From assembly GCA_001897155.1 (NCBI GenBank), contig MKSF01000007.1:62001-126000 (forward strand): a DNA stretch of 64,000 bases, written 5' to 3'. The DNA is from Bacteroidetes bacterium 47-18 (lineage in GTDB: Bacteria; Bacteroidota; Bacteroidia; Chitinophagales; Chitinophagaceae). Position numbers and translations under genes: made by a program. Shown here in pieces: positions 11,986 to 24,304 of the stretch. Below the pieces are notes generated by a model. The model made no database searches. It was given only the letters and a program-made list of their open reading frames with translations, and had not been told where the DNA came from. Within the stretch, counting starts at the first letter, position 1; each line of letters starts with the position of its first letter.

Positions 11986-14847
11986 TTATCTCCCGGTATA
12001 GATAAAGGGTGCCCAGGACAGGGAGAACTGTAGCATAGGATCGCCGCTGGTGATGAATTCTCTTTTTACCTCGTTCAGCGCTTTTACGAATGTCTTCTTT
12101 TCCCCGAAGACTTTCTGGTAGAGCCTGGATACCAGCACGGAAGTGGCGTAGTCATTCACATTCCATAATGACGTGATGGTCGAGCTGGCGCCGGCCATCA
12201 GGAAAGCGTGGTTAAGTCCCGCTACACCATCGCCCGGTACCAGCTTACCCAGGCCTGTCTGGCAGGCGCTCAGCATCACCAGCTCGGGGGCCATCTTCAG
12301 CTTAGCCACTTCACTGACCACCAGCTCTCCATCTTCGCCATCTACGGGTTGCGGGAAGACCGAAAACATAATACCGCTCAGATCGAACACATAAGGATGC
12401 ACGCCCGCGTGGCTTGCCAGGTGAATGATACGGTAATGATGCAGCGCACCGGAGGCATTCAGCCGCTTAAATTCATTTTCGGTCATCTTATCATTCAGGA
12501 AAATATCGGCATCCGGCACGATGGTTTTGATCATTTCCACTTCCTTTTTTGTACCCTCCAGGTAATTGGCAGCCGTTTTGCTAAAGGTGGCGAACGCCGC
12601 GTCAAGATGCTGGTCGGTGGCAATAGCTTCCTTCACTTTAAGCTCGACGCGCTCTATATCGGTCTGTGACTGCAGGGGATAGCCTTTGGAAGTCCGTGCG
12701 CTATACCGGGCGTCACCGAAGGCCAGTACCGGCTTGCTGTATATTCTGGATTTGCGGGTGCGCAGGTTGACCAGAACCGTACCGCTGGGGATATAGCTGA
12801 TGTCGTATTGCTGCACCAGGTATTGCTTGTCCCCGGTAACCAGGGTCTCAAAAGGCAGGTAATTCAGTTCGCCGTCCAGGGAGAAGATCAGGTGCTTCTT
12901 GCCGGCAAGCTGGGGTTCGAACATCTGGAGCAGCATATTGTAAAGCGCCATACCGATGCCCTTCGCTATATTGGGGTTATAGGTGCCTTTTTTGAGCTCG
13001 TCGGATGAAGGATTCAGCTTGCGCCGGTACAATTCGATGAGCAAGCCCATCTCACCCTGCTTAAAATCATGGCCCCGGGCCTCTTCCCTGGACTGGTACC
13101 GGGTGTAAACAGGAGTGCGGAACTCTTTTTGAGCCAACTCTTGCTCTATTGCCCCGATCTCGGCATTGAAACCGGCATATATCTCGGGCAGGAAGCTGTT
13201 CCGTGCGAAGGAAAACCCAAAATGCACCTTATCTTTGGTCAGGACCAGCGGTATGTAGTAGCCATCAGAAAGCTCGCCCGATATGTCGATATAGTAGATC
13301 AATGCTTCATCGGGCCGCAATACGGCCTGTATCTCCTTCAAGGTGGCCCGCTTTTTATTTTTCGAGGTGCTTTCCGACAGGCTGTAGCCCTTCACGTCTT
13401 CAATGACCGGCAGCAATTCTTCGCCGCCCTGGACATGGGCAATACAACCTATCAGAAGATTACAGACCCGGTTGTAATCCGCCAGCAAGCCCTTCACCGT
13501 TTCGGCCGAAGCCCCGGCCATCTCGTTCTCTATGATCTTTTTAGAACGGACAAAGTGGGGGATGGCTTCTTTATATCGGGCGTCATTGGTGAGCAGCACA
13601 CCCTGGTTTTCCGCTACGATAAAGGATTTTTCATCGCTCTTGAGGGCCGCTGACATCTGCCCGCTTACGAATCCCTCTTTGTTCTGTACCAGGCCATAAT
13701 CGCTTACGCCGGTCCTTTTGGCATAAGCAATGCCTTCGTCAAACAGCTGTGCAGCCCTGGCTTTATCCGCATAGCTGATGGCTACGCCCGCGGTATTGTA
13801 AGCGTCTATTTTGTGTCCCTGGTTCACAATTTTGGGAATAACGGCAGCCAGTGCCTGCCCGTATTCTTTTGCCTGATTAATGTCTTTTTTCTTCAAAAAA
13901 GCGTCCGTCAGGTTGATCAATACCTCGTAGGACAGGGCCGGGGCGATACCCGAGCTGTTGAGTTCCGCCAGCAGTATCTTGGATGCCGAAATGATCGCTT
14001 CGTAATCTTTGACGTTTTCACTGTACCGCTCCATTTGCCTGTACAGCAGATATTTGGACAGCGGGTTGTCACGCTTTTCAGCAAGGGCTGCATTGAAATC
14101 CGGCAACAGCTTACGGAACAGGGTTTCCGTTTTCTCCTTGCCTGCTACGCAGGAAACAGCGATGCTGCCCAACAGATGATCATACAGCACGGCGGGATAG
14201 GCTCCGGCCTGCTTTTTAGCCTTGAGCTGCGCAAAGGCATCCTGTGGAAAAGCGCTTTTCCCGGCATCGAAACCCTTCAGTTTTATTACGTGCTGTTCGT
14301 GGAAAGCCATATTGCCTGCATAATGCTGCCTGTATTGTTGCAGGCCCTGTCGCAGTGCGTTTGTAACGCCTGAATAGTCGGTATAGGATGCAAAATTATC
14401 CAGCAATCCCTGCAGGTACTGTTCCGCCTGCGCCTTTTCTTCGGTGCTCATCGGTATAAAAGCAAGGGTGTACATGGCATTGGTCACTACTTGCGGTTCC
14501 TTGGCGTACATAGCAGCCATCACAGCCGAAGTGAGATGAACGGAATGAAACGGGTATAAAGCTATCACAGCCTGATAATATCGGGAAGCTGAAGGATACT
14601 GCTTGTTGTTGTAGAGGGCATTCCCGGCATAAAAATACAGGCTTGCCTCTTCGGGATACCTGTCGGCCAGGGCTATAGCGAGATTGAAGGCTTCTTCCCA
14701 CCGGCCGGCCTTGTTGGCATTGGAAAGCTGCTGCCAGGCGGGATGCGTTTCTAATCTGTCCGGCTGGGGGAATACTTCCTGGAACTGGCCGTAAGCGCTA
14801 TACATACCCAGCAGCAGGTATAAAGAAAAAATTTGTTTCACGCGCAT
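11986..14847 (-). CDS. Secreted TPR-CHAT protein
   Basis: A 953-residue protein with an N-terminal signal peptide (cleaved around YGQ, residue 21), a long helical TPR-like region (from the NANKAGRWEEAFNLAIALADRY area to about residue 500) and a C-terminal CHAT domain. The CHAT domain shows the clan CD pair His813 (LASHAG) and Cys862 (MLSACQTG), followed by GVAGLNHAFLMAGASS and SLWNVND. CHAT domains are caspase-like peptidases, usually controlled by a partner that binds the repeats. Secreted versions are widespread in Bacteroidota and their targets are unknown. The adjacent secreted MORN-repeat protein is a possible partner (inference from position only). Confidence 0.88.
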   Translation of the reverse strand: MRVKQIFSLYLLLGMYSAYGQFQEVFPQPDRLETHPAWQQLSNANKAGRWEEAFNLAIALADRYPEEASLYFYAGNALYNNKQYPSASRYYQAVIALYPFHSVHLTSAVMAAMYAKEPQVVTNAMYTLAFIPMSTEEKAQAEQYLQGLLDNFASYTDYSGVTNALRQGLQQYRQHYAGNMAFHEQHVIKLKGFDAGKSAFPQDAFAQLKAKKQAGAYPAVLYDHLLGSIAVSCVAGKEKTETLFRKLLPDFNAALAEKRDNPLSKYLLYRQMERYSENVKDYEAIISASKILLAELNSSGIAPALSYEVLINLTDAFLKKKDINQAKEYGQALAAVIPKIVNQGHKIDAYNTAGVAISYADKARAAQLFDEGIAYAKRTGVSDYGLVQNKEGFVSGQMSAALKSDEKSFIVAENQGVLLTNDARYKEAIPHFVRSKKIIENEMAGASAETVKGLLADYNRVCNLLIGCIAHVQGGEELLPVIEDVKGYSLSESTSKNKKRATLKEIQAVLRPDEALIYYIDISGELSDGYYIPLVLTKDKVHFGFSFARNSFLPEIYAGFNAEIGAIEQELAQKEFRTPVYTRYQSREEARGHDFKQGEMGLLIELYRRKLNPSSDELKKGTYNPNIAKGIGMALYNMLLQMFEPQLAGKKHLIFSLDGELNYLPFETLVTGDKQYLVQQYDISYIPSGTVLVNLRTRKSRIYSKPVLAFGDARYSARTSKGYPLQSQTDIERVELKVKEAIATDQHLDAAFATFSKTAANYLEGTKKEVEMIKTIVPDADIFLNDKMTENEFKRLNASGALHHYRIIHLASHAGVHPYVFDLSGIMFSVFPQPVDGEDGELVVSEVAKLKMAPELVMLSACQTGLGKLVPGDGVAGLNHAFLMAGASSTITSLWNVNDYATSVLVSRLYQKVFGEKKTFVKALNEVKREFITSGDPMLQFSLSWAPFIYTGR

Positions 14848-17235: not shown

Positions 17236-17808
17236 ATGGATGATGAAAATAATTATACGGATGTGCTGTCAAGGCATTATGATGCTGTTTGGGGACAAGG
17301 CTCCACTTCGCTGATATGGGAATACGGGCCTGTGAATAAATTGAATGATGATTTCAGCGTGCAGGAGTTTCCACCCGGAGATAGGATAGGCATGTGGGTA
17401 TATGCCACATCAGGAATGAGCTCTCATATGACAAAAGAAGGTGAGCCTGTCGAATTGCACATGTTTTCCTGCAGGCAGGACCGCGGATTGGCAGAGCTCC
17501 TGACAAGTGTTGCCTATTATCATAAGCTCGTTGCCAAGCTGAATTTGCATCATACTATAAATTTCGGTCAACCCTGGCAGGATAATTCAGGATGCGATCA
17601 TGGCTTTATTTCATTACCTTATATAAATGGCCCGGCGCTGATGGATTGTGCTTACCTGGGGGGAAATATTAAATGTTACTGGATGATACCTGTTACTGCA
17701 AACGAGGTGGCATTCAAGATACAGTATGGCGCGGAAGCACTGGAAGCAATCTTTGACAGGGAAGCGCTGGATTATCCAGATCCCGGGAGGAATGACGTAA
17801 TCAGGTAG
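17236..17808 (+). CDS. Suppressor-of-fused (SUFU) domain protein
   Basis: 190 residues that match the bacterial SUFU-like family: an N-terminal helix with HYDAVWGQGS, the central LHMFSCRQDRGLAELLTSVAYYH and NFGQPWQDNSGCDHGFISLPY, and a final acidic stretch. There is no signal peptide, so it is cytoplasmic. Bacterial SUFU proteins often act as immunity proteins in polymorphic toxin systems, but no toxin gene is adjacent, so the role here is open. A MITE ends 14 bp upstream and probably supplies or disrupts its promoter. Confidence 0.8.
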   Translation: MDDENNYTDVLSRHYDAVWGQGSTSLIWEYGPVNKLNDDFSVQEFPPGDRIGMWVYATSGMSSHMTKEGEPVELHMFSCRQDRGLAELLTSVAYYHKLVAKLNLHHTINFGQPWQDNSGCDHGFISLPYINGPALMDCAYLGGNIKCYWMIPVTANEVAFKIQYGAEALEAIFDREALDYPDPGRNDVIR

Positions 17809-19275: not shown

Positions 19276-19851
19276 TCAATATTCCATCAGGTCTTTATAC
19301 AGCCCGTACAGGCGTTTCCGCAGGTATTTTACGGCATAATGCTTCCGGGATAAGAGTGTATTGACAGGTATGTTCATTGTTTTTGCTACCTCCTTAACAG
19401 GCAGCCCTTCCAGCTCCGTAAGTTCAAAGGCCTCCCTTTGCTCCGGAGGTAATTCCGACAGGGCGGCTTCCAGCTCTTTCCAGACCAGGGAGCGCATATA
19501 TTCCGCTTCCGGGGTCGGGCTGTCATCATTGAACAGGATATCTGAAAACGCTTCCAGCACATTCCCTTCCTCATCATACCGGGAAGCCGGCAGCGCTTCC
19601 TCCCGCTTTTTCCTGCCTTTATTGATGATGGTGTTCCGGGCTACGCGGTAAAGCCAGGCCGTGACCTGCTCGATCGGGCTGATATTGCTTTCAACCGTCT
19701 TGACCAGCTGGTAAAATACATCCTGCAGGATATCTTTCGCATCTTCGCTGTTAGAGACGCGTTTCCGTATGAACGATTGCAGGCGGGGCTGATGCTCCTT
19801 TACAAGCTGCTCTACATTGGCTTTCCCGTTGTGCTCATTTGTCTCCATCAT
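19276..19851 (-). CDS. ECF-type RNA polymerase sigma factor
   Basis: About 190 residues. Region 2 is visible as LQSFIRKRVSNSEDAKDILQDVFYQLV and AWLYRVARNTIINKGRK, and region 4 as LSELPPEQREAFELTELEGLPVKEVAKTMN. I chose the ATG at 19851 (a second ATG follows at 19848). The frame is open upstream to a TTG at 19911, but that would bury the end of the preceding gene. It overlaps the membrane-protein gene by 17 bp (19835-19851), indicating coupled translation. No classical anti-sigma gene is present; the two small upstream proteins are candidates for its regulators. Confidence 0.88.
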   Translation of the reverse strand: MMETNEHNGKANVEQLVKEHQPRLQSFIRKRVSNSEDAKDILQDVFYQLVKTVESNISPIEQVTAWLYRVARNTIINKGRKKREEALPASRYDEEGNVLEAFSDILFNDDSPTPEAEYMRSLVWKELEAALSELPPEQREAFELTELEGLPVKEVAKTMNIPVNTLLSRKHYAVKYLRKRLYGLYKDLMEY

Positions 19852-20194
19852 TATGCTGCGCTTGCCCTTCCCTGTCAAAGTGTTCGGCTCCGAAAGGATG
19901 ACCGAAGCCAAATTTCCGCCGCTTATTGATAAATTCTTTACGCTGCTCCGGTGTCATATTCATCCATTTCTCGCGGATATGATTGCCTCTTTCGTGCATC
20001 ATCCGTCTGCCGCCCCATCCGAAACGCCCGAAAAGTATGCGGCTCAGTACCAGCAGACCCAGCGCCTGCCAGAAATTAATGGTGACGAATCCGAAAATGC
20101 CGGGTATCAGCCAGTTCCACAGCAGCATGACCGCAACGCTCACGGCAGCCAGCGCTGCTATGCCCATTAAGGCTATTTTTATGCCTCTTTTCAT
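19835..20194 (-). CDS. Small membrane protein with an REKWxxMT motif
   Basis: 119 residues, of unknown family. Two hydrophobic segments (about 5-35 and 40-56) form a hairpin in the inner membrane. The remaining C-terminal part is basic and contains REKWMNMTPEQRKEF at 74-88. The same motif occurs twice in the neighbouring 99-residue protein. MTPEQR recalls the LTxxQ motif of the Spy/CpxP/CnrX group of stress or metal sensors, though this is only a resemblance. Its end overlaps the sigma factor start, so it may be the membrane-bound regulator of that sigma factor. Confidence 0.7.
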   Translation of the reverse strand: MKRGIKIALMGIAALAAVSVAVMLLWNWLIPGIFGFVTINFWQALGLLVLSRILFGRFGWGGRRMMHERGNHIREKWMNMTPEQRKEFINKRRKFGFGHPFGAEHFDREGQAQHNDGDK

Positions 20195-20221
20195 ATGTAT
20201 TAATTATGATGTGTTTCAATG

Positions 20222-20256
20222 AAGAGCACTTCCGGACTGTAGCGGAAAGTGCTCTT
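20222..20256 (-). other. Strong stem-loop between the two small EKW-motif genes
   Basis: A 13-bp stem with one bulged base (AAGAGCACTTCCG at 20222-20234 with 20243-20256) sits 15 bp after the stop of the 99-residue gene. A T run is lacking on the minus strand, so it may be an mRNA-stabilising or partial-termination structure that lowers expression of the sigma factor genes relative to the first gene. Confidence 0.55.
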
Positions 20257-20271
20257 GGGTTAGATAATTAA

Positions 20272-20571
20272 TTAATGCCTGTGCGCCCAGAAGCCTTGCA
20301 TACCCTGCATCCGGCCTTTAAAGGCGTTTTTTCGCTCCTCCACAAATGCCTGCTTTTCTGCTGCCGACATCTTTGTCCATTTTTCGCAAAGTTCGTCCAG
20401 TTTCTCTACAGAAAAGCGGTCTTCTCCCGCTTTTCCGAACCGCTCATTGGCAAATTCGAGCTTTTCACTGTCGGTCATATCCGACCATTTTTCCCGGAAC
20501 TGTTTGCTGGCTTCCTGATCAAAAGGATTATAGCCGAAGTATCCCATTCCAAAACTGTTTGGTGTCATCAT
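20272..20571 (-). CDS. Small protein with two EKWxxM repeats
   Basis: 99 residues with no signal peptide or membrane segment and no family I recognise. It has two copies of a motif: REKWSDMTDSEKLEFANER at 26-44 and CEKWTKMSAAEKQAFVEER at 62-80. Both are predicted amphipathic helices, matching one copy in the adjacent membrane protein. It is probably soluble, and the shared motif suggests that the two proteins bind the same partner or each other. It stands first in a probable operon ending with an ECF sigma factor. Confidence 0.65.
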   Translation of the reverse strand: MMTPNSFGMGYFGYNPFDQEASKQFREKWSDMTDSEKLEFANERFGKAGEDRFSVEKLDELCEKWTKMSAAEKQAFVEERKNAFKGRMQGMQGFWAHRH

Positions 20572-20777
20572 GTGCTTAAATTTTTGTAGTGATTCAATTT
20601 GTTGCTTTAAGAACGTTCTTACCTATGAAGACAACCGGGAAGGAAAAATATTTTATGAAGTCCGGATTTTTTTTAAAAACAGGAAAATTGCTAAGATGTT
20701 CAACCCGTTTAACCTGGCAGAGACTTTAAGCCTGTGTAAAACAGATAAAATTGTACATTTAGCAGTAAATTCATAGT

Positions 20778-21487: not shown

Positions 21488-21994
21488 TTACAGGTTCAGG
21501 TCGCCTTCCCTGCCTATATCCAGCTGCTGACCGGAGACGGCGCTGGCCGCTACTTTTAAAATGGTCATCAGCTTATTCGTCTTATTATCCCAATAATGCG
21601 CTTCCTGCGGGGTCACCTTCAGTACCCTGATCCGGGGATCTTCCTTGCCTTTCTCAAACCAGCCTTCCATCATCTTGTTCCAGTATTTCTCTATCCTGTC
21701 CTTATCCTCCGAGATTTCCGCGGTGCCGTTAATGCTTAGGAAGTTATAATCTCCTACATGCGAAAACAGCACGCTGACCTTATTATTATTTTTCAGGTTG
21801 GCATAGGTCTCGCTTTCCGATGAGAACAAATACCAGATATTACCTTCAGGGTCAGCTTCCTGCCGGCTCATAGGTATGGCGTGAGGGTACACGCTGCCGG
21901 AGGTAAAAGTGCAAAGCATACCGATATCGATCTTATTGACCATTTCCCGGAGCTTTTCGACAGCCGCCGAGTGATGCAGATTTTCTGTGCTCAT
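21488..21994 (-). CDS. Pyridoxamine 5'-phosphate oxidase-fold general stress protein
   Basis: 168 residues with the split beta-barrel fold of the general stress protein 26 group: MLCTFTSGSVYPHAIPMS, IWYLFSSESETYANLKNNNKVSVLFSH, FLSINGTAEISEDKDRIEKYW and the conserved PRIRVLKVTPQEAHYWDNK near the C-terminus. Members bind FMN or FAD and their reaction is unsettled. It lies downstream of katE on the same strand (94-bp gap), so a shared oxidative-stress role is plausible. Confidence 0.85.
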   Translation of the reverse strand: MSTENLHHSAAVEKLREMVNKIDIGMLCTFTSGSVYPHAIPMSRQEADPEGNIWYLFSSESETYANLKNNNKVSVLFSHVGDYNFLSINGTAEISEDKDRIEKYWNKMMEGWFEKGKEDPRIRVLKVTPQEAHYWDNKTNKLMTILKVAASAVSGQQLDIGREGDLNL

Positions 21995-22088
21995 AGTTGT
22001 TTATTATTTTGAATTATACATTGATAGCAGGTACACAGCCTGCTTTTTGTCTGCTTTATTGTTATTATTGATACCAGGCCGTCCTGTC

Positions 22089-24203
22089 TTAAGCCGGAAC
22101 TTTTCTGCCGGTTTCCCTTTCCCATACCCGGTGGCCTTTCATTACAGCGATGAAATCCTCCGCCAGGTTATCCCGGCTTTCAAAGATGACGCCCTGGTCT
22201 TTCTCAATAAACGTCTTGCCCGCCAATGATTCCGCGCCTTTGGCAAAGGCCAGCGCCTTGCAGTGCCGGTAGCCTTCGTTCAGGAACTGCAGGAAATCGG
22301 CGTTATCGGCCAGCCTGGCTACTGAATCACCGTCCGGGATATAAAAGGCATCGTAACATACGGATGCTTCTGTCAGGTAAGAGTGCAGGATGGCTGCCTT
22401 ACCGCCCTCCTTATATTTGATTTCCCCCACGTGCGGAGCGATCAGGACCGCCTGCGCGCCTTCTTTTTCAAGCTCCTGCTTCATGGTATCGATAGATGCC
22501 CTGCTGACCCCTTCATCTACCAGGAAAGCTACTTTCCGGGACCGGATGGTACCTTCGCCTGCCTTTACCTTCATGCTGAGGGCAGGGGATAGCTCTATCT
22601 CGGGTTGTTGGGGCCGGATCGGGTACTGCGGGTGATTCTGGCGTGCGAATTTTAAAGTTAGCGGATCCAGCTCTTCAGAAGGCTTAAGTCCCAGGTTATC
22701 ACCTACCTTCTTTGCCAGCGTTTTATCGATCTGGTTCAATACGGCCAGCTCCCGCTTGCGGATATTAACGTCCTTCACCTTGGAAAGTTCAAAGCTCAGC
22801 GCATTGATGATATGAGCCTGCTCTTCCTTGCTTTGGGAATTGAAAAACAGCCGTGCCTGTGTAAAATGATCCGCGAAGGCCTCCGGGCGGGCCCTTACTT
22901 TAGGCGCGTTCACGGGCTGCCGGTGCGACTGGAAGCCTGTTTCGCCTTTCAGCATAGCGTGGTAAGGACAGCCTTCGGCTTTGCTGTTGGGGAAATAGCT
23001 TACCGCTCCCCCGGGTATGTCCATCCTGCTGAATCCGTCTTTCTGGTTGTTATGCTTACCGTTTACGGGCCTGTTGATGGGCAGCTCATGGAAGTTGGGG
23101 CCGCCCAGCCTGTAATTCTGGGTATCCATATAAGAGAAGATCCTTCCCTGCAGCAGGGGATCATCGGAAAAGTCAATGCCGGGGACCAGCCTGCCGGGGT
23201 CAAAAGCGGCCTGTTCCGTTTCGGCAAAGAAATTCCCGGGGTTCCTGTTGAGCGTCATCGTACCGATGATCTGAACAGGGACCAGCTCTTCGGGGATGAT
23301 CTTGGTCGGGTCCAGGATATCAAAAGAGTATTTGGATTCGTCCTCTTCGGGTACCAGTTGTACCCCGAGGTCCCATTGCGGGTAATCGCCGTTCTCAATG
23401 GCCTCCCACAGGTCGCGCCGGTGAAAATCGGCATCGAACCCGGAGATCTTCTGGGCTTCGTTCCAGGCTACTCCATGCACGCCCAGCCTGGGTTTCCAGT
23501 GGAACTTCACAAAAGTGGCCTTACCCTCCGCATTCACGAATTTAAAGGTATGCACCCCGAATCCTTCCATCATCCTTAAGCTCCTGGGTATGGCCCTGTC
23601 CGACATGATCCACATCGTCATATGGGCCGCTTCGGGCATCAGCGAGATAAAATCCCAGAACGTATCATGCGCGGATGCCGCCTGGGGCATTTCATTATTG
23701 GGTTCCGGCTTGACCGCGTGGACAAGGTCGGGGAAGTTCATGGCATCCTGGATAAAGAAGACCGGGATATTATTGCCTACCAGGTCATAATTCCCTTCTT
23801 CGGTATAAAATTTAACGGAGAAGCCCCGGACATCCCTGGCCAGGTCTGTTGAGCCCTTGAAGCCGGCCACCGTAGAGAAGCGTGTGAATACAGGCGTCAC
23901 GGTCCCTTTTTTCAGGAAGGCGGCAGAGGTATAAGCCGACATATCTGCGGTGGCTTCGAAAATCCCATGCGCGCCGGATCCCCTGGCATGTACCACCCGT
24001 TCCGGGATCCGTTCCCGGTCGAAGTGCATCAGCTTGTCGAAAAAAATATGATCCTGCTGCAGAGAGGGGCCTCTTTCACCGGCTTTGAGCGTATTGTTGT
24101 TGTCATACACCGGCACTCCGTCATTGGTGGTCAGAACTTTGTTGGTGTTATCAACCTGGTGCTGGTCGATGTGGGCGGTTTTTAAGTTACTTTGCTTTTT
24201 CAT
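22089..24203 (-). CDS. katE: Large-subunit catalase HPII with C-terminal DJ-1/GATase-like domain
   Basis: About 704 residues from the ATG at 24203 (a TTG two codons upstream is open but unneeded). Catalytic His72 lies in RVVHARG, the distal Asn in GNNIPVFFIQDAMNF, and the haem-ligating Tyr in FSYMDTQNYRLG. After residue 560 or so there is a flavodoxin/DJ-1-like domain (KVAFLVDEGVSRASIDTM), which defines the large-subunit clade. The enzyme breaks down hydrogen peroxide in the cytoplasm. A 4-kb transposon begins 101 bp upstream of the start codon, so the native regulatory region is interrupted. Confidence 0.97.
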   Translation of the reverse strand: MKKQSNLKTAHIDQHQVDNTNKVLTTNDGVPVYDNNNTLKAGERGPSLQQDHIFFDKLMHFDRERIPERVVHARGSGAHGIFEATADMSAYTSAAFLKKGTVTPVFTRFSTVAGFKGSTDLARDVRGFSVKFYTEEGNYDLVGNNIPVFFIQDAMNFPDLVHAVKPEPNNEMPQAASAHDTFWDFISLMPEAAHMTMWIMSDRAIPRSLRMMEGFGVHTFKFVNAEGKATFVKFHWKPRLGVHGVAWNEAQKISGFDADFHRRDLWEAIENGDYPQWDLGVQLVPEEDESKYSFDILDPTKIIPEELVPVQIIGTMTLNRNPGNFFAETEQAAFDPGRLVPGIDFSDDPLLQGRIFSYMDTQNYRLGGPNFHELPINRPVNGKHNNQKDGFSRMDIPGGAVSYFPNSKAEGCPYHAMLKGETGFQSHRQPVNAPKVRARPEAFADHFTQARLFFNSQSKEEQAHIINALSFELSKVKDVNIRKRELAVLNQIDKTLAKKVGDNLGLKPSEELDPLTLKFARQNHPQYPIRPQQPEIELSPALSMKVKAGEGTIRSRKVAFLVDEGVSRASIDTMKQELEKEGAQAVLIAPHVGEIKYKEGGKAAILHSYLTEASVCYDAFYIPDGDSVARLADNADFLQFLNEGYRHCKALAFAKGAESLAGKTFIEKDQGVIFESRDNLAEDFIAVMKGHRVWERETGRKVPA

Positions 24204-24304
24204 AATCAAAATTTTGTTGAGATTATTACAGACCGGAAAGGTCGCTGTACAGGTGATTGAAAGTGTAGTATAAACAGAAAAAGCTACTAATTGTTTTAAT
24301 GCTT

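Follow-up and report, generated by a model that had tools for sequence, protein, structure and literature searches.

The anti-sigma factor CnrY lies N-terminal to a single transmembrane (TM) helix, and works together with the periplasmic protein CnrX. Its cytoplasmic element is short, and consists of two helices that clamp both sigma2 and sigma4 of the sigma factor CnrH (PMC7406223). Among Bacteroidota, the Dma1/2 proteins, found with ECF21, are recently described and unusual anti-sigma factors (PMC13088901). Soluble anti-sigma factors derive by truncation from membrane-anchored ones (PMC8103513). Class I anti-sigma domains lie beside 6% of the ECF sigma factors of Bacteroidetes, as against 32% overall, and the survey that gives these figures asks whether other anti-sigma classes operate in this group (PMC7406223). 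The module described here offers a concrete candidate that is widespread; its partner and its promoter are both defined and its predicted regulon is almost confined to one locus, and the question of the missing anti-sigma factors can therefore be tested directly in a simple reporter strain.

The window (the whole 64-kb stretch of DNA that was analysed) contains three ORFs within positions 19276-20571 of the minus strand, confirmed by their positions and translations. They form a single minus-strand operon, in which a soluble protein of 99 residues with two putative EKWxxM helical hairpins (20272..20571) comes first, followed by a 119-residue membrane protein with two TM helices (19835..20194), and by an ECF sigma factor of 191 residues when counted from its ATG (19276..19851), with an alternative TTG start at 19911. 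The membrane protein stands out by its linkage to the sigma factor, by its AlphaFold model, and by the fact that no Pfam (2025) or NCBIfam (June 2026) family matches it above threshold. An earlier note on this DNA, made from the letters alone, had pointed to the overlap of the membrane protein and sigma factor genes and to the absence of a known anti-sigma factor. Both observations hold: the overlap is 17 nt from the ATG at 19851 (77 nt from the TTG at 19911), and no known anti-sigma family was matched by any of the three proteins. The reading that I favor, and hold to be moderately probable, is that the operon is an autoregulated sigma/anti-sigma module in which the membrane protein acts as inhibitor and sensor, and belongs to a new class of two-TM partners.

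The sigma factor itself is of a conventional composition, with sigma2 and sigma4 only (Pfam Sigma70_r2, 9.1e-14, and Sigma70_r4_2, 2.1e-13), and lies above the cut-off of the NCBIfam sigma70-ECF model. I gathered 281 non-identical sigma-membrane protein pairs, covering both gene orders. Across these, no C-terminal extension of the ECF41/42/CorE type follows sigma4, with a median of 1 and a maximum of 7 residues after the model, and the DAED motif is present in 217 of the 281 sigma factors, 279 of which keep at least two acidic residues there. In ECF43-type sigma factors, which are regulated by Ser/Thr kinases, DAED is replaced by uncharged residues, whereas this clade retains the acidic motif. 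The extension-controlled and the kinase-controlled modes therefore do not apply.

Loci were collected by scanning a genome collection with the membrane protein as the sole query (80 loci) and by searching 147 family-level genomes, and a locus was taken as linked when an ECF sigma factor lay on the same strand at no more than 300 bp. An ECF sigma factor adjoins 111 of the 113 loci found by the membrane protein alone, with the membrane protein gene first in 60 of the linked loci and the sigma factor gene first in 51. The reverse search, with the sigma factor of the window as the query against the 147 genomes (E<=1e-25), led to a similar picture: all 59 sigma homologues adjoin a membrane protein homologue, and 59 of the 66 membrane protein homologues adjoin such a sigma factor. 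The weakest linked match scored 7e-34, and none fell between this value and the cut, so the sigma clade is cleanly separated from the other ECF sigma factors of the family genomes. As judged from this genomic linkage, the membrane protein is a dedicated, evolutionarily fixed partner of this sigma clade.

The membrane protein was found in 169 of 394 genomes of the bacterial family, and a sample of 395 genomes from the phylum contained 58 carriers; it is rare in the class to which Herbaspirillum belongs, with 2 carriers among 274 genomes, one of these being the query genome itself. Both gene orders occur across Bacteroidota, Enterobacterales, Burkholderiales and Acidobacteriota. Besides Bacteroidota and Acidobacteria, the carriers include Enterobacter, Lelliottia, Superficieibacter, Herbaspirillum and Duganella, as well as Pantoea, Caballeronia and Burkholderia replicons. 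In Pantoea, the copies are annotated as "hypothetical protein" beside "RNA polymerase sigma factor". E. coli genomes gave no match to the Enterobacter pair at the nucleotide level. One operon, on a contig of a "Rhodobacteraceae" metagenome-assembled genome (MAG; locus L085), is nearly identical to that of a Cytophagia MAG (L088), and its placement is probably a binning error.

Some Chitinophagaceae genera possess the membrane protein without this sigma factor, and most of these copies keep an EKW-like motif. In a set of eleven such copies the promoter described below is gone and the TM core is kept, with the EKW motif lost in some. The idea that the motif decays once the sigma factor is lost came from three sigma-less copies, and was abandoned when most of the larger set proved to have kept it.

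The membrane protein possesses a TM hairpin at about residues 5-56 (20027..20182, minus strand), with the conserved core LWN...FWQALG...ILFG. Over the 281 pairs this core is strongly conserved as L-W-N (the W and N being essentially invariant), F/Y-W-Q-A-x-G and I-L-F-G, and is followed by a Gly/Arg/His-rich linker and by the motif [R][E][KR]WxxM[TS]xE[ER][RK]xxF, in which the W is conserved in 72%, the M in 90% and the E in 92% of the family. Averaged over the same pairs, the net charge amounts to +3.6 ahead of TM1, is close to 0 in the loop between TM1 and TM2, and reaches +4.0 after TM2, this last segment being positively charged in 99% of the membrane proteins. Because of the positive-inside rule, both ends of the protein, together with the EKW motif, are predicted to be cytoplasmic (N-in/C-in topology), and its EKW domain would therefore not be a periplasmic sensor. 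The AlphaFold model (mean pLDDT 74) shows helices at residues 2-33, 41-56, 72-78 and 82-95, so that two short helices (72-78 and 82-95) fall in the predicted cytoplasmic part. No anti-sigma domain family (ASDI or ZAS) of Pfam or NCBIfam was matched by this protein or by 74 of its homologues.

In the window's protein the motif is REKWMNMTPEQRKEF (residues 74-88; 19931..19975, minus strand; predicted cytoplasmic), where an R replaces the final K of the consensus. The 99-residue protein carries it twice, as REKWSDMTDSEKLEF (residues 26-40; 20452..20496, minus strand) and CEKWTKMSAAEKQAF (residues 62-76; 20344..20388, minus strand), and a six-frame search of the window shows no other exact occurrence of [RC]EKWxxM[ST]xxxKxxF. 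A single EKWxxM[ST] arose in 3 of 20000 shuffles of the 99-residue protein. In a profile-profile comparison, the small-protein and membrane-protein families matched with 95.8% probability (pairwise E 7.5e-9, over 24 columns), the second repeat of the former aligning with the cytoplasmic domain of the latter. The small-protein HMM singles out the membrane proteins among all ORFs of the loci, and the membrane-protein HMM independently matches small proteins (with 1.2e-7 at one locus, for example). Given the profile score and the selectivity of the small-protein HMM, the likeness between the two families is beyond chance. The 99-residue protein possesses no signal sequence and no hydrophobic N-terminal segment, and no Pfam or NCBIfam family matches it above threshold. 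In the family searches, resemblances to the HMG-box and to DUF1289 were dismissed, being sub-threshold and due to short W-x-x-[ML]-[ST] helix-turn-helix look-alikes. The AlphaFold model of the 99-residue protein (mean pLDDT 61.7) suggests two helical hairpins, and is too weak for a fold search. The best reading of these comparisons is that it represents a duplicated, unanchored copy of the cytoplasmic domain of the membrane protein, and by analogy it fits the general trend for soluble anti-sigma factors to arise from anchored ones (PMC8103513).

Homologues of the 99-residue protein are limited to a handful of lineages, namely the window, Sphingobacteriales 44-15, a Niabella MAG, other Chitinophagaceae MAGs, and termite-gut Prevotella-like and Bacteroidales MAGs, and every one is encoded upstream of the membrane protein gene on the same strand. 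It is an optional, patchily distributed first gene. The earlier note had described a motif occurring twice in the 99-residue protein and once in the membrane protein, which is correct save for the R noted above, and had proposed a sigma control module with the soluble protein as sensor or decoy and a loose likeness to CnrYX or Spy. The motif could have been a general domain unlinked to sigma factors, and the linkage counts given above speak to the contrary. The proposal of a control module is retained, in that it is sigma-linked and has the membrane protein as its constant partner. The sensor role is not, because the 99-residue protein lacks a signal sequence and is optional and patchily distributed, and is thus not the core sensor. 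The likeness to CnrYX or Spy is not borne out either, with the EKW domain predicted to be cytoplasmic, the soluble protein devoid of a signal peptide, and no significant family match.

I searched for shared promoter elements through an unsupervised count of dyads upstream of the operons, for each gene order separately. The leading dyad reached a weight of 63.7 of 137, whereas shuffling gave 6.5 at most, and a conserved ECF promoter of the form TAAAATAT-N14-(C/T)GTCT precedes the operon in both gene orders. With the sigma factor gene first, TTTAAAATAT-N14-CGTCT is present at 169 of 214 loci and at 0 of 214 in shuffled controls; with the membrane protein gene first, TAAAATATTTTTC...TCATTTGTCT is present at 56 of 63 loci, the Enterobacter and Pantoea promoters of this set reading AGCAATATTTCCC...TCATCCGTCT. 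A score of at least 12 was obtained for 205 of 274 operons. As seen with the position weight matrix (PWM) in both gene orders, an ECF-type promoter with a CGTC-like -10 element thus lies upstream of the sigma factor's own operon. Among membrane protein copies without a detected sigma factor it was found in 0 of 15, with a best score of 6.1.

In the window, the predicted promoter is ACTTCATAAAATATTTTTCCTTCCCGGTTGTCTTCA (20626..20661, minus strand), located upstream of the gene for the 99-residue protein and with a PWM score of 39.5. Its -35 element, TAAAATAT (20655-20648), and its -10 element, TGTCT (20633-20629), are separated by N14, making it an exact match to TAAAATAT-N14-TGTCT. It is the only strong site in the 64-kb window for the PWM built from homologous operons, and the sole exact match in its own genome to the near-identical pattern TAAAATATT-N13-TGTCT. 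This genome has just one perfect site, located at the operon, as do two other carriers of the 99-residue protein gene (G028, which is Sphingobacteriales 44-15, and G718). In eight further genomes, 9 of the 11 exact sites are at the sigma-membrane protein locus, before the sigma factor gene or after the membrane protein gene. A wider regulon in the window's genome was considered and rejected: looser matches occur there at control frequency (72, against 80 for the reversed pattern), and with the PWM the operon site alone stands apart. It is very probable that the sigma factor itself recognizes the operon promoter, which would make the operon autoregulated. Since the genome scans find the promoter almost only at the locus, the sigma factor probably controls mainly its own cluster.

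At 28 of 215 sigma-first loci a second copy of the promoter lies downstream of the membrane protein gene, typically before a third gene or an Hsp20 gene. Such a gene encodes either a further small TM protein, whose C-terminus is often EKW-like, or a protein resembling Hsp20. The conserved promoter, the near-locus-only regulon, these additional promoter-bearing genes and a range that extends well past Bacteroidota all go beyond what the first reading of this DNA contained.

Several observations were made on the genes around the module. A third small protein, mostly with a TM segment, is encoded downstream of the membrane protein gene at 28 loci, often with an EKW-like C-terminus of the form FADKIRNMSDEEYxxFK, and its gene frequently has a sigma promoter copy to itself. 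At sigma-first loci, a conserved protein of ~71 residues (MxxLVFKTxV...WNFDLxDxDNILRV...AGxxCEEL) follows the membrane protein gene at a median distance of 28 bp in 55 of the 281 pairs; it has no Pfam family, looks like a small HMA-type fold, and never occurs together with the third TM gene or the Hsp20 gene at these loci. This is also the largest number of pairs covered by any neighbor cluster. At six Enterobacter/Lelliottia loci, the pair is located about 90 bp upstream of scs-like (suppressor of copper sensitivity) genes, with DsbD_N and DsbA-like domains (Pfam). In several termite-gut and gut Bacteroidales, a gene for a TetR-family regulator adjoins the module upstream, and some modules in such genomes are also beside TolC/HlyD-type efflux genes. 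In the window itself, a pyridoxamine-phosphate-oxidase-like stress protein and a long catalase are encoded at 21488-24209, past an upstream methyltransferase gene, and in the PWM scan of the window neither gene is preceded by a strong match to the sigma promoter. A large CHAT-domain protein (11986-14847) and a SUFU-domain protein (17236-17808) are also encoded near the operon.

How might such a module operate? The membrane protein is most likely the inhibitor and sensor, because it is obligate, co-regulated and endowed with a cytoplasmic helical domain, and because the extension and kinase modes do not apply; its anti-sigma role is inferred from sequence. In the proposed mechanism, the sigma factor would read the conserved promoter and drive its own operon, and the membrane protein, an N-in/C-in TM hairpin bearing a cytoplasmic EKWxxM helical hairpin, would be at once sensor and anti-sigma factor. 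In the resting state, its cytoplasmic domain would hold the sigma factor at the membrane; a change sensed by the TM hairpin would release it, and the released sigma factor would transcribe mainly its own cluster, thereby restocking the inhibitor, which would shut off the response, and producing the small accessory proteins. The 99-residue protein may tune this loop, either as a second sigma-binder or as a competitor for the membrane protein. If this is correct, the sigma factor would be fed back on simultaneously by several of its own products carrying the same EKW domain. My best guess for the signal is envelope or protein-folding stress, as the neighboring targets in relatives include Hsp20 and small membrane proteins. 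A paired coupling analysis of the 281 pairs gave values above those of pairing shuffles overall, the top couplings being scattered and not concentrated on the EKW domain, and I do not count it in favor of direct contact.

The narrow regulon, which includes the partner, also fits the partner as an effector. The membrane protein, together with the 99-residue protein, would then carry out the response, and the sigma factor, controlled by its synthesis or by an unlinked factor, would serve to produce these small proteins. Consistent with this, the strong copies of the promoter are found almost entirely at the locus, the downstream EKW-like third genes and Hsp20 genes often bear a promoter copy of their own, and the membrane protein persists without the sigma factor in several genera; as the sigma-less Chitinophagaceae copies mostly keep an EKW-like motif, it would seem able to act alone. 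I nevertheless regard an effector role of this kind as unlikely, even if worth keeping in mind: the one-to-one linkage is fixed in both gene orders, no neighbor cluster is frequent enough to provide another candidate regulator common to the loci, and a positively autoregulated ECF sigma factor normally requires an inhibitor.

That inhibitor could also be the soluble protein, with the membrane protein recruiting or protecting the sigma factor at the membrane. The 99-residue protein is soluble, carries the EKW motif twice, and is encoded first in the operon in the window's lineage, as would be fitting for an abundant antagonist; however, the large majority of loci have the sigma factor and membrane protein without it, which renders this arrangement improbable. 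A metal-responsive module of the CnrYXH or Spy-ZraP kind was suggested by the His-rich tails of the membrane-first group (8.0% His, against 2.4% in neighbor proteins) and by the scs-like genes next to the Enterobacter pair. Yet His accounts for no more than 3.2% in the sigma-first group, the neighborhood seen in Enterobacter is limited to close relatives and absent in Pantoea, and there is neither a periplasmic sensor domain nor a signal peptide in a system whose EKW domain is predicted to be cytoplasmic. The case for metal or copper sensing is thus lineage-specific, and I demoted it to an alternative to which I give little credence. The sigma/anti-sigma module with a membrane-bound inhibitor therefore remains my preferred reading, and its compact set of sigma factor, partner and promoter could serve as an orthogonal switch.

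The pair and its promoter were found in no paper in the literature searched, and the sigma-linked partner appears to be undescribed, because no Pfam (2025) or NCBIfam (June 2026) model covers it and its copies are annotated as hypothetical; the pair may coincide with a previously numbered ECF group. In its genetics it resembles an anti-sigma factor, as a dedicated gene adjoining its sigma factor (111/113 and 59/59). With the class I anti-sigma factors (ASDI, as in RseA/RsiW, and ZAS) it shares membrane anchoring, a position beside an ECF sigma factor, a cytoplasmic helical part and, very probably, an operon with an autoregulatory promoter. However, the ASDI spans about 100 residues and is usually N-terminal to the TM helix, whereas the cytoplasmic part of this partner spans about 50-60 residues, is C-terminal to a TM hairpin, and has no ASD or ZAS match. 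A short helical element that clamps the sigma domains is the hallmark of class II and III anti-sigma factors (CnrY, NepR, RsbN). The short cytoplasmic helices of this partner could, by analogy, act on the sigma factor as those of CnrY do, but it matches no family of the class II anti-sigma factors (CnrY, NepR), and the operon has no CnrX.

The periplasmic sensors CnrX, Spy and ZraP are likewise small helical proteins, some of them His-rich. Unlike these, the 99-residue protein has no signal peptide and the membrane protein is predicted to be N-in/C-in, and a ZraP/Metal_resist match was seen in one homologue only, below threshold. The Dma proteins are large, with an anti-sigma domain, a TM segment, a disordered tether and a C-terminal beta-barrel (PMC13088901), whereas the partner described here has 119 residues, is helical with two TM segments, and also occurs outside Bacteroidota. 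In SigX-CfrX(-CmpX) of Pseudomonas (ECF102), an ECF sigma factor is accompanied by a small, unusual, putative anti-sigma factor that is soluble, and by a membrane component (PMC8999054), a likeness to this operon that is drawn from the description of that system. Set against these systems, the two-TM protein may represent a further structural class of ECF anti-sigma factors, one that occurs in several phyla and would account for some of those missing from Bacteroidota, with a near-single-locus regulon and feedback by several products, a proposal to which I would give slightly less than an even chance.
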